Assembly (NCBI GenBank): GCA_003223245.1
Contig: QHYI01000122.1
Location: 1 to 43,003, forward strand
Source of the DNA: Acidobacteriota bacterium
GTDB lineage: Bacteria > Acidobacteriota > Terriglobia > Acidiferrales > UBA7541
Reading direction: 5' to 3'
DNA: 43,003 nucleotides
In this document: one piece after another, positions 35,229-38,031 of the stretch
Layout of the letters: the number at the start of each line of letters is the position of its first letter
Position numbering within the stretch: position 1 is the stretch's first letter
Program-made: the position numbers and the translations under genes
The notes under the pieces: generated by a model
Seen by the model: only the letters and a program-made list of their open reading frames with translations
Databases searched by the model: none
What the model was told of the DNA's origin: nothing

Positions 35229-35759
35229 ATGTCAGAGAAACTTCAGCCCGGCAAGATTCACGGCGAGCTCCGCGCCGAGGGTTTGCGTTTTGGCGTGGTC
35301 GTGAGCCGCTTCAACAGTTTCATCACCGACCGTTTGCTGGCCTCCGCAATGGATGCACTGGGACGGGCTGGCGCCGAAAGCAAGGACGTGGATGTGGTGC
35401 ACGTTCCCGGCTCCTTGGAACTGCCGCTAGCGGCAAAAAAACTTGCCGCCACGGGTAAGTACGGTGCTTTGATTGCCATTGGCTGCATTTTGCGCGGCGA
35501 GACCGCCCATTACGACTATGTCTGCTCGGAAACGGCGCGGGGTCTGCAGCTCGCCCAAATGGACAGCGGCTTGCCCATCATCTTCTGCGTGCTGACCTGC
35601 GACACCCTGGAGCAGGCCATTGATCGCGCCGGGCTAAAGGGCGGGAACAAAGGCTTTGAAGCAGGCCTGGCGGCCGTCGAAATGGCGCAACTTTCGCGAA
35701 AGCTTCGCGCTTCCGAAACAAGACCGGCCCCTTCATCCGAACCCCGGCGGCGTAAGTAA
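35229..35759 (+). CDS. ribH: 6,7-dimethyl-8-ribityllumazine synthase
   Basis: A 176-residue riboflavin-pathway enzyme that joins 5-amino-6-ribitylaminouracil and dihydroxybutanone phosphate to make the riboflavin precursor. Motifs seen are SRFNSFI, VPGSLELPLAAKKLA, CILRGETAHYDYV, which holds the catalytic His, and GLKGGNKG, which holds the phosphate site. Other riboflavin genes are not in the window. The C-terminal tail (about 155-176) is Arg/Pro-rich and longer than usual. nusB begins one base after the stop, so the two are probably one transcript, an arrangement common in bacteria. Confidence 0.97.
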   Translation: MSEKLQPGKIHGELRAEGLRFGVVVSRFNSFITDRLLASAMDALGRAGAESKDVDVVHVPGSLELPLAAKKLAATGKYGALIAIGCILRGETAHYDYVCSETARGLQLAQMDSGLPIIFCVLTCDTLEQAIDRAGLKGGNKGFEAGLAAVEMAQLSRKLRASETRPAPSSEPRRRK

Positions 35760-35760
35760 C

Positions 35761-36168
35761 GTGTCCCTCCGCAGCAAAGCGCGCGCATTTGCCATGCAAA
35801 TGCTCTTTCAGTGGGACATGAGCCAGCAGGAGCCCGCGAAACTCGCGGCCAAATTCTGGAAGAGCGCTAAGGCCGCAGACAAGACACGCGAGTTTGCCAA
35901 CCAACTTTTTGAAGGCGCCACCAAAGACGTTGTCGCCCTCGATGAAATCATCGGGAAACACTGCGAAAACTGGCGGTTCGAACGCCTCGCCGCCATCGAT
36001 CGCGCGATTCTCCGCCTGGCCATTCACGAGATGAGTTCGACCGATACTCCTGCCAAGGTGGTCTTGAACGAAGCGGTCGAATTGGCCAAGAAATTCTCCT
36101 CCGAGGAGTCCGGTGCTTTTGTGAACGGCGTGCTGGACTCTGTCCATAAATCATTGACCACACAGTAG
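35761..36168 (+). CDS. nusB: Transcription antitermination factor NusB
   Basis: A 135-residue all-helical protein that binds boxA RNA with NusE (ribosomal protein S10) and helps rRNA transcription. The Arg-rich start RSKARAFAMQMLFQWDMS and the late FVNGVLDSVHK are the standard family ends. The start is a GTG just one base after the ribH stop (36168 is the last base of the nusB stop). An upstream frame inside ribH gives a longer protein that lacks family similarity, so it was rejected. The GTG start and the tight junction suggest translational coupling with ribH. Confidence 0.95.
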   Translation: MSLRSKARAFAMQMLFQWDMSQQEPAKLAAKFWKSAKAADKTREFANQLFEGATKDVVALDEIIGKHCENWRFERLAAIDRAILRLAIHEMSSTDTPAKVVLNEAVELAKKFSSEESGAFVNGVLDSVHKSLTTQ

Positions 36169-36298
36169 TTATCGCAAGCTTCAAACATCCAAACCTCCAT
36201 TAGCCAGTTCGCTCGATCGGGTTGCAACTTTGCTGGGCCGCGGGTGTTTCATTCGATAAGTGTGGTGGATCCAGGAACGCTTTTACGGGGAGAAAAAA

Positions 36299-36682
36299 AT
36301 GAAAGTAGAACTCTTGGTGCGACGAGGCGTACTCACGTTCGCGTTGGCGGGCTTGCTTGCGGCGGGTGCTTATGCCCAGGACCCGAACCCTCAGCAACAG
36401 GACATGCAGAGCGACAAGAAAGACATTCGGCAGGATAAAAAAGACCTGGCGAAAGATCGCTTCGACCGCCATGCGGATCAGCGCGACATCAACCACGACA
36501 AAGTCGACCTGGCCAAGGACCGCAGAGACCGCAATGCCGACCAGCGCGACCTCAATCGCGATAAGAGGGATCTAGCGAAGGACCGCAAAGATCGCAGGAA
36601 AGATCAGCGCGACATCAACAAGGACAAGCGCGATCTGCATAAGGACCGCAAAGATCTGCGGGCAGACCGCCGCCATCGGTAA
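36299..36682 (+). CDS. Secreted heptad-repeat protein with regular Asp/Lys/Arg pattern
   Basis: A 127-residue protein. A signal peptide (1-26, ending AYA) is followed by a short Gln/Asn-rich linker, and from residue 39 to the end by about twelve heptads of form DxxDxxx. Asp falls at positions 1 and 4 of nearly every heptad. The heptads group into a 21-residue higher repeat: DKxDLAK, DRxDRxA, DQRDINx, read at residues 46, 67 and 88, with a last degenerate one at 109. This is not a normal coiled coil, because the repeat core positions are Asp, not hydrophobic. It may form a charged single helix, possibly binding cations or the cell wall. The ATG follows GGGGAG. I do not recognise a family and give no function. 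Confidence 0.85.
   Translation: MKVELLVRRGVLTFALAGLLAAGAYAQDPNPQQQDMQSDKKDIRQDKKDLAKDRFDRHADQRDINHDKVDLAKDRRDRNADQRDLNRDKRDLAKDRKDRRKDQRDINKDKRDLHKDRKDLRADRRHR
36413..36679 (+). repeat. 63-bp (21-codon) tandem repeat region inside the heptad protein
   Basis: The heptad-coding DNA is made of 21-base units within a 63-base higher period, about three and a half copies. The copies differ in third codon positions but keep the Asp and Arg pattern, which suggests selection on the protein. Confidence 0.7.
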
Positions 36683-36701
36683 AAGTCGATGCGAAACACA
36701 A

Positions 36702-36735
36702 AGGGCCGCCGGAGCGATTCCCGCGGCTCTTTTTC
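36702..36735. terminator. Bidirectional terminator between converging genes
   Basis: AGGGCCGCCGG, a seven-base loop and CCCGCGGCTCT form a stem with one mismatch and one wobble pair, followed on the plus strand by TTTTTCTTTCTTT. On the minus strand the same hairpin is followed by TTTGTGTTT. It ends the heptad-protein gene and may also end the phzF-like transcript from the other side. Confidence 0.7.
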
Positions 36736-36757
36736 TTTCTTTGCGCCAGGCCCCTTC

Positions 36758-37639
36758 TCAGACGCTAATCGTTCCCTCAAACACTTTGACCGCCGCGCCG
36801 CTCACGCGCGGAACGAGTTTCTTGCCTGACTGTGTGACTTCCACTTCGATGTGGCTCGGTCGCCCCATCTCCGCTCCTTGCAGGATGCTCAGCGTGTGAC
36901 CCGGCGCCAGCTTTCCGTGGCGCACAAGGTAGGCGCCCAGCGAGCCCGCTGCCGAACCCGTCGCCGCGTCTTCATAAAGTTCCCAGGGAAGCATGCCGCG
37001 CGAGCACACTTTTCCGTTGCCGTTTGGCGCGAAGCAGTAGGCCATCGTGGCGTTTTTGCCTTGCAACTTGCCCAGTTCCATCATGTTCATCGTGATTTTG
37101 CCGAGCGCGGCGCGATGGCGCAGCGGGACCATCAAGTTAAAGATGCCTGTGGAAACAAGCTCGGGTTCTAGTTTGGTATCGAAATCCTTGGGTGAAAGCC
37201 CCAGCGCGGAAGCCAGTTTCTTTTTGTCGATCTTTGCGGGCTTGAAGAGGGCTTCTTCTTGCGTCATGGTTACGCGGTTCGGGCGGCCATCCTTGAAGCG
37301 AATTTCCACCGGCAAAACTCCCGCACCCGTTTGCTGAAGAACATGTACGCCCCCTTCCTGCGCCGGAACGACGCCAAGCTCCGCGAGCAGAAACCACGTC
37401 CCGATGACCGGATGTCCCGCAAGCCGCAGCTCTTCTTTCGTTGTGAAAATGCGCAGGCGCGCGAGTGCTTCCTCATCCGTGGGCTTTTGCACGAAGACCG
37501 TCTCGGAAAGGTTCATCTCGCGGGCAATCGCCAGCATTTGATCGTCGGTGAGCTCGTCGCCATCGGTGAAAACGGCGAGTGGATTGCCGGCAAAGCGCGT
37601 GGTCGTGAAAACATCAAGCGTGTAGTAGCGGTGTTCCAT
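36758..37639 (-). CDS. PhzF-family isomerase/epimerase-like protein
   Basis: A 293-residue protein of the PhzF family, a fold related to diaminopimelate epimerase. Motifs are YYTLDVFTTTRFAGNPLAVF at the start, the catalytic-type Glu in NLSETVFV, GHPVIGTWFLL, and EDAATGSAAGSLGAYLV near the C terminus. The family name comes from phenazine synthesis but most members act on other substrates, so no pathway is assigned. It is the last gene of the minus-strand run that starts at the aminotransferase, 32 bases after the cupin gene. The ATG used (37637-37639) is chosen because family similarity begins at once; a TTG 12 codons upstream is possible. Confidence 0.9.
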   Translation of the reverse strand: MEHRYYTLDVFTTTRFAGNPLAVFTDGDELTDDQMLAIAREMNLSETVFVQKPTDEEALARLRIFTTKEELRLAGHPVIGTWFLLAELGVVPAQEGGVHVLQQTGAGVLPVEIRFKDGRPNRVTMTQEEALFKPAKIDKKKLASALGLSPKDFDTKLEPELVSTGIFNLMVPLRHRAALGKITMNMMELGKLQGKNATMAYCFAPNGNGKVCSRGMLPWELYEDAATGSAAGSLGAYLVRHGKLAPGHTLSILQGAEMGRPSHIEVEVTQSGKKLVPRVSGAAVKVFEGTISV

Positions 37640-37671
37640 GGAGGAGATTCCCGTGCGCGCAGCGGCGCGTT

Positions 37672-38031
37672 TCAAATGCGCTGGAGCCGGGCGACCGTCC
37701 TTTCGTTCACGATATTCCCGGTATTCAAAGTCGTTTTTGGTTCGATCAGCACGACGTGCACTTCCTCATCCGCAGTGGGGCAATGCTCAACGCCGCGCGG
37801 CACAAGGACGAATTCGCCTTCCCGCACCACCGCTTCGCGATCGCGGAACTTCATTCGCAGCGTGCCTTTGACCACCAGAAAGAGCTCGTCCTCGTTTTCA
37901 TGGTGATGCCAGACAAATTCTCCGGCGAATTTGACGGCTTTCAAATAGCAATCGTTCACTTCCCCCAGGATGCGTGGATTCCAGTGGTCTGAAAACTGCG
38001 CGAATTTCTCCTTGAGATTGACCGTGTCCAT
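37672..38031 (-). CDS. Small cupin-domain protein
   Basis: A 119-residue single-domain cupin. The metal-binding motif is clear: HHHENEDELFLVVKG, with the later GEFVLVPRGVEHCP supplying the last His. Small cupins of this type bind one metal and may be isomerases, dioxygenases or sensors. A mannose-type isomerase role would suit the neighbours but cannot be shown. It lies between the phosphohexomutase and PhzF-like genes on the same strand, with gaps of 28 and 32 bases, so it is probably in the same transcript. Confidence 0.9.
   Translation of the reverse strand: MDTVNLKEKFAQFSDHWNPRILGEVNDCYLKAVKFAGEFVWHHHENEDELFLVVKGTLRMKFRDREAVVREGEFVLVPRGVEHCPTADEEVHVVLIEPKTTLNTGNIVNERTVARLQRI

Follow-up and report, generated by a model that had tools for sequence, protein, structure and literature searches.

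The locus described here raises the question of what is encoded by an open reading frame that consists almost entirely of heptads marked by aspartate. The window, which is the whole stretch of DNA that was analysed (43,003 nucleotides, contig QHYI01000122.1 from an Acidobacteriota bacterium), was initially annotated as carrying a secreted protein of about twelve consecutive DxxDxxx heptads arranged in a 21-residue super-repeat and belonging to no recognised family. The position given for the gene was exact, and the coding region contains the following features:

36299 to 36682, + strand: open reading frame of the DxxDxxx heptad protein (127 amino acids, stop codon included)
36299 to 36376, + strand: Sec-type signal peptide spanning residues 1-26 (visual inspection places cleavage after AYA; a similar sequence is present in relatives)
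36413 to 36679, + strand: heptad block from residue 39, with twelve DxxDxxx heptads and a terminal DRRHR, in 21-residue units (63 bp)

The signal peptide contains the stretch AGLLAAGAYAQ (recognised by eye) and would direct the protein to the periplasm. It is followed by a short QDPNPQQQ linker and then by heptads with Asp at positions 1 and 4. From residue 35 onward, all 26 Asp residues fall on heptad position 1 or 4, a register that was equalled by none of 200,000 composition-preserving shuffles (the best shuffle reached 17). The super-repeat is also real, as TRF reports a period of 63 bp (3.4 copies, 73% matches) at 36443-36654 and four 21-residue units can be aligned. The mature protein has a pI of 9.9 and a net charge of about +8, and it contains no Glu, Gly, Cys, or Trp. 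The view that no family is recognised was borne out, as the Pfam scan gave nothing above cut-off (DUF874 alone appeared, below its cut-off), the NCBIfam scan gave no model above cut-off, and the PDB sequence search returned nothing usable (best E-value 0.031). Ten relatives likewise matched no Pfam or NCBIfam model above the curated cut-offs, and among the papers listed by a literature search on the repeat, the family, and its analogues, nothing was seen on a DxxD heptad protein.

A search for the same heptads in other Acidobacteriota, as the initial annotation had proposed, recovered a family in Acidobacteria and, according to record titles, in other phyla. Matches at E <= 1e-3 were found in 40 of the 89 genomes of the window's GTDB family, and in 30 of the 50 with completeness of 90% or more and contamination of 5% or less. 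A genus set of 21 copies, including that of the window, was drawn from the 25 genus genomes with a DxxD match; the copy at L030 (genome G035), which is apparently eroded, and those in G013, G028, and G029 were left out. The genus copies are 127-289 amino acids long. A wider scan of genome contigs gave 68 DxxD loci, one of them (L060) false, and by their record titles these are mostly from Acidobacteria, many of them metagenome bins. The other titles name Bacteroidota, Ignavibacteriae, Gallionella and other Nitrosomonadales, Massilia, Nitrospirae, Rokubacteria, and a Deltaproteobacterium. Homology may extend beyond Acidobacteria, judging by the repeat, the hinge described below, and the gene neighbours in three loci; the alternative is convergence. 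The protein at L097 had no match in the plasmid collection. Two candidates were rejected as unrelated: L002 (E 0.138) and L060, an Asn-rich protein of pI 4.2. The latter comes from Inordinaticella fortuita and has many DINQDKL heptads, an acidic composition, and a C-terminal hydrophobic stretch; it represents a different heptad array.

The place of the gene in the genome is conserved among relatives of the window. The neighbouring genes are:

35656 to 36168, + strand: nusB, conserved on the upstream side (its NusB domain starts near residue 40 of the reading frame)
36758 to 37675, - strand: phzF-family gene, the conserved downstream neighbour

In 30 fetched loci (L001 and L003-L031), nusB lies beside the DxxD gene in 27 and phzF in 25. 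Neither gene adjoins it in L025 and L031, and some of the fetched loci end early. After nusB in L030 (1480-1680), the copy at the conserved place is reduced to a few heptads, lacks an ATG, and has a changed signal peptide; it appears to have eroded. In the acidobacterial loci L052, L053, L057-L059, L064, and L070, a phosphoglucomutase/phosphomannomutase-like gene (called by tblastn, and by Pfam in L052 only) is encoded on the same strand, 0.4-1.3 kb downstream.

The gene is flanked by signals that would make it a transcription unit of its own:

36225 to 36249, + strand: ECF-type promoter CAACTTT-N12-GTGTTT (AACTT-N15-GTT), ending 49 nt before the ATG
36700 to 36732, + strand: intrinsic terminator, a stem with a T run (the fold of 36694-36740 has -20.1 kcal/mol, z -3.4)

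In alignments of the upstream regions, 20 of the 21 genus loci have (A/C)AACTT-N15-GTTT at a distance of 48-66 nt from the start codon. When the spacer was scanned from 5 to 30, AACTT-N15-GTT preceded all 21 genus genes (one locus also matched at spacer 10) and 18 of 22 other acidobacterial genes, where single matches occurred at spacers 18, 20, and 27; the corresponding shuffle means were 0.05 and 0.08. These counts omit L049 and L050, which are the same records as L009 and L015, as well as L060. The 22 loci exclude L078, whose contig starts inside the gene, and L091, L095, and L096, all four titled as Acidobacteriota; with them the count is 18 of 26. In the remaining 26 loci, in which those four are included, AAC[TC]T-N15-GT[TC] was found in two, which is no more than at spacer 16 and represents background. 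A scan for sigma-70 promoters gave nothing in 36100-36800. Downstream of the stop codon, 18 of 21 genus loci have a stem followed by a T-rich tail, and the consensus terminator scan does not list the stem of the window. Just past the promoter, the sequence AAGTGTGGTGG (window 36258-36268) is kept in many close relatives and perhaps lies near the transcript start.

The promoter leads to a candidate regulator. Genes for an ECF sigma factor, a zf-HC2 protein, and a DUF3106 protein come after the DxxD gene in L093. In L083 and L097 (Rokubacteria according to the title) an ECF sigma gene is next to the DxxD gene and DUF3106-like matches, seen by tblastn only, lie beyond it. Such adjacency is found in these three of the 68 loci only (tblastn with two sigma queries), and L057 has a weak partial sigma match 6 kb from the DxxD gene. 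The window's own genome has 23 ECF-like places. The pattern [AC]AACTT-N15-GT[TC] occurs near three of them and directly before the sigma reading frame in one, L135, where the operon reads sigma - zf-HC2 - DUF3106; it is also the only one of the 23 with a DUF3106 match, within fetched flanks that are short. The L135 protein is only the third-best match to the L083 sigma (34%). It scores above threshold for the general ECF model and is similar to RpoE and SigW, at scores below the equivalog cut-offs of both. The candidate sigma is present in 33 of 36 genus genomes, and in the orthologues examined the promoter stands at spacer 15 in 29 of 30 and at spacer 16 in the last one. The DxxD gene and the sigma operon thus share a promoter at fixed spacing, and control of the DxxD gene by the L135-type sigma is what we infer from this. 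Close upstream of the candidate sigma gene, and on the same strand, is a gene for a ZIP-type metal transporter (PF02535; L135:2205-2972).

The shared promoter, together with the position of the DxxD gene directly before the sigma gene in L083, L093, and L097, would also fit a role within the circuit itself, in which the helical protein would attach to the anti-sigma factor on its periplasmic side and tune the release of sigma. CpxP and CnrX provide models for such a feedback or sensor role in sigma and stress circuits. We regard this role as quite improbable, because the DxxD gene is not beside the sigma gene in the window's own genome, a length that varies from 127 to 289 residues within the genus is unusual for a specific ligand, and several genomes keep the sigma and have no DxxD match. 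The latter include G004, G024, G025, G030, G032, and G034, which are 90-98% complete and have no match at E <= 1e-3.

The pattern MAACTTT-N12-GKGTTYGA, which was drawn from these same promoters, gave 49 matches over 36 genomes, all of them close relatives, and none in the reversed control. By their coordinates, 13 precede the DxxD gene, 23 precede the sigma operon, and 13 lie elsewhere; 43 of the 49 precede a sigma or an exported protein. The matches elsewhere are found before a gene for a secreted protein some 155 amino acids long (L192, L195, L221), before reading frames with a lipoprotein-like start as judged by eye (L205, L219, L222, the first two of which look alike), before a sigma relative (L211), at places with no assigned gene (L209, L214, L220), and at the start of a reading frame that we take to be cyclodeaminase-like (L130, L196, L208), where the recurrence probably stems from shared coding sequence. 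This pattern misses the window's own promoter (GTGTTTCA) and matches the sigma promoter of the same genome. A looser pattern showed no enrichment in that genome (21 matches against 46 in the control), and a form matching the window promoter gave 4 matches against 3. These four lie before the DxxD gene, the sigma gene, a gene for a secreted protein (L127), and one place with no assignment. The first pattern that was used (GAAACTTT...) missed the window's own genome because its copy reads CAACTTT. In 21 relatives the same pattern gave five matches and none in the control: before the DxxD genes of G012, G017, and G028, at a contig end in G015, and at a place with no assignment in G032.

The coding sequence bears the marks of selection. 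At 1012 register positions in the 21 genus copies there are 889 Asp and 9 Glu, with GAC used 562 times and GAT 327 times, and a change from GAY to GAR takes a single third-base substitution. Eight proteins encoded next to the window gene together contain 106 D and 170 E. The preference for Asp over Glu is therefore strong in the genus, yet it is no strict rule: the G028 copy (in L103), which has the same promoter, contains 16 D and 14 E, and in distant copies Glu makes up 3% of the residues at position 1 and 10% of those at position 4. Two copies of the genus depart from the pattern, the apparently eroded L030 and the Glu-rich G028. For the repeat region, dN/dS was 0.05-0.22 in 11 pairs of the same length, which are not independent of one another. 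All 21 genus copies keep the register and are free of internal stops, having been picked as open frames; neither the loss of register nor the frame-breaking changes that might have spoken against selection on the protein were seen.

A repeat that expands by DNA slippage had also been suggested, and in its extreme form this reading makes the array low-complexity drift with no protein function. The 63-bp tandem repeat agrees with it, as do the length changes, since copies with the same N-terminus measure 127, 169, and 211 amino acids and units have therefore been lost or gained in register. That part of the suggestion stands. A recent expansion does not, as more than half of the silent sites differ between the four units in the window gene, which indicates that the array is old. 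Drift with no function is extremely improbable in light of the dN/dS values and the conservation of the promoter, terminator, and genome place.

The usual member of the family consists of a heptad block, a hinge, and a second heptad block. The hinge reads KYGANSAQ in the genus and is often a G[ND] turn elsewhere. It is present in 19 of the 21 genus copies, the exceptions being the window copy and L009. When one register shift per protein was allowed, 1303 of 1354 Asp residues in 50 distant copies were in register (mean 652 in the shuffled control, 30 rounds), and visual inspection usually placed the best split at the hinge. L003, L004, and L005, the nearest relatives of the window copy, exceed it in length by 84 residues (4 x 21), so that the window copy is most simply explained by an in-register deletion that removed the hinge. 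AlphaFold2 models the window copy as one helix spanning residues 32-126, with 79 of 127 residues at pLDDT of at least 90, and the hinge-bearing L032 as two long helices (31-120 and 125-210) whose relative placement is uncertain (pTM 0.33). A fold search with the L032 model gave no match at E <= 0.001. The single charged helix proposed initially thus agrees with the model of the window copy and does not extend to the family as a rule. These models suggest that the protein is helical in solution.

The residues of this helix are arranged in stripes. On a heptad wheel of the window protein, clustering (R) was 0.90 for Asp, 0.69 for hydrophobic residues, and 0.40 for basic residues, values equalled in 0, 15, and 1 of 20,000 shuffles, respectively. 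Opposite-charge pairs are depleted at i+3 (10) and i+4 (11) relative to about 19 in shuffles, and acid-acid pairs are enriched (12 and 13, against 6.8 expected); opposite charges instead adjoin at i+1 (30 pairs) and i+2 (26). It is plausible, from the sequence, that the helix has the binding face that had been proposed, as Asp, hydrophobic, and basic residues each gather on one side, and a charge-striped helix would be expected to associate with a partner, with itself, or with a charged surface. Only heptad position 5 is mostly hydrophobic, and positions 1 and 4 are Asp, in contrast to a canonical coiled coil with two hydrophobic core positions per heptad.

ER/K single alpha-helices, described as Glu-Arg-Lys helices in the portion of PMC5347031 consulted, are one of the close comparisons. 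The window protein is also long, highly charged, and modelled as one continuous helix, and its relatives change length by whole units, as would be expected of a spacer whose role is length and stiffness only. The depletion of opposite-charge pairs at i/i+3 and i/i+4 shows that this is not an ER/K helix; it is, together with the lack of Glu, the reverse of the helices in that portion of PMC5347031. The DxxD protein also differs in having Asp in place of Glu, charge stripes, export, and a hinge in most genus members, and a canonical spacer helix is very unlikely. A charge-striped helix with few i+3 and i+4 salt bridges represents a different design.

The Asp stripe might act as a ladder that responds to cations or protons, binding Ca2+, Mg2+, or soil metals or being neutralised by acid, so that the protein folds or assembles and buffers the envelope. 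The preference for Asp in the 21 genus copies, the gathering of Asp on one face with its acid-acid pairs at i+3 and i+4, and the ZIP-type gene upstream of the candidate sigma are in line with this idea. We consider it unlikely, because the mature protein is net positive, as are all the listed relatives except the unrelated L060, and a positive charge disfavours strong cation affinity. The Glu in G028 and at position 4 of distant copies also weighs against it, and no metal-handling family was noticed among 28 Pfam-scanned neighbours of distant copies.

The DxxD protein is real and under selection, and it is most likely the exported output of an ECF sigma circuit. The best explanation, and one that we consider somewhat better than even, is that it is a periplasmic envelope-stress protein in an ECF sigma regulon, as read from the sequence. 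Several observations weigh against this reading: a sigma gene adjoins the DxxD gene in three of the 68 loci only, the promoter is at background level in the remaining 26 loci, looser patterns show no enrichment in the window's own genome, L135 ranks third in similarity to the L083 sigma, and six nearly complete genus genomes keep the sigma and give no DxxD match at E <= 1e-3. The sigma factor would be encoded elsewhere in the genome in the sigma - zf-HC2 anti-sigma - DUF3106 operon. Upon its release by the anti-sigma factor, the promoter at 36225-36249 would fire and give a one-gene transcript ending at the terminator after 36700. The mature product would be a long helix, or two with a hinge in most relatives, carrying stripes of Asp, of Lys/Arg, and a thin one of Leu/Ile. 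The like-charged stripes may pack on another helix, on charged envelope components, or on unfolded proteins instead of forming intrahelical salt bridges, and the Asp stripe could take up cations or protons. Such a protein may act as a non-enzymatic rod that guards the envelope. A bolder proposal, to which we give a low probability, is that aspartate-ladder helical hairpins form a widespread unnamed class of exported proteins with striped charge and Asp in preference to Glu, which would serve as an envelope shield switched by protons or cations and as the dedicated output, perhaps also the feedback ligand, of the sigma - zf-HC2 - DUF3106 circuit across several phyla.

Several known systems share some of these properties. 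As in RpoE- and SigW-type regulons, the candidate sigma resembles RpoE and SigW and is paired with a zf-HC2 anti-sigma factor. RpoE promoters have a GTC-type -10 box; the DxxD promoter differs in that its -10 is mostly G[TG]GTT, and its target is an unnamed repeat protein. The (C/A)AACTT element resembles the -35 boxes GGAACTT of RpoE and ATTGAAACCTTT of SigW, as given in the consulted portion of PMC8103513. The searched literature contained no mention of DUF3106. Group 3 LEA proteins are hydrophilic, repetitive, and linked to stress, and Asr is an exported basic acid-shock protein; the DxxD protein is likewise hydrophilic and repetitive, and it would be linked to stress. Among the relatives, L086 alone matches the Asr model (E 0.09, below cut-off). 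Spy, CpxP, and Skp are exported helical periplasmic chaperones under envelope-stress control, a control that would apply here as well; unlike them, the window protein and ten relatives match no Pfam model above cut-off, and the L032 model gave no fold match. Braun-type lipoproteins have a lipobox Cys, and the DxxD protein has no Cys. The periods of 7 and 21 differ from the 11-mers that the consulted part of PMC12871917 gives for group 3 LEA proteins. RTX calcium-binding repeats are Gly- and Asp-rich nonapeptides in the part of PMC3034196 consulted, and Gly is absent from the mature DxxD protein.

Acidobacteria are common soil bacteria, and to our knowledge little is known of their envelope-stress responses. 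For a family without a name, the analysis defines an architecture (block, hinge, block) and a strong bias towards Asp at the expense of Glu, and in Acidobacteria it points to a regulator that can be tested; the sigma factor, its promoter, and several exported targets are open to direct testing. Among these candidate targets is the second secreted family, of about 155 amino acids, with members at L127:830-1285 (own genome, contig C210), L132:834-1301, L192, L195, and L221. Two members that were scanned had no Pfam match. The L127 protein is 45% identical to its counterpart L132 in G032, where the motif is also present. The same ECF-type promoter as that of the DxxD gene lies about 200 nt upstream of these genes, and the family is perhaps a third unit of the regulon.
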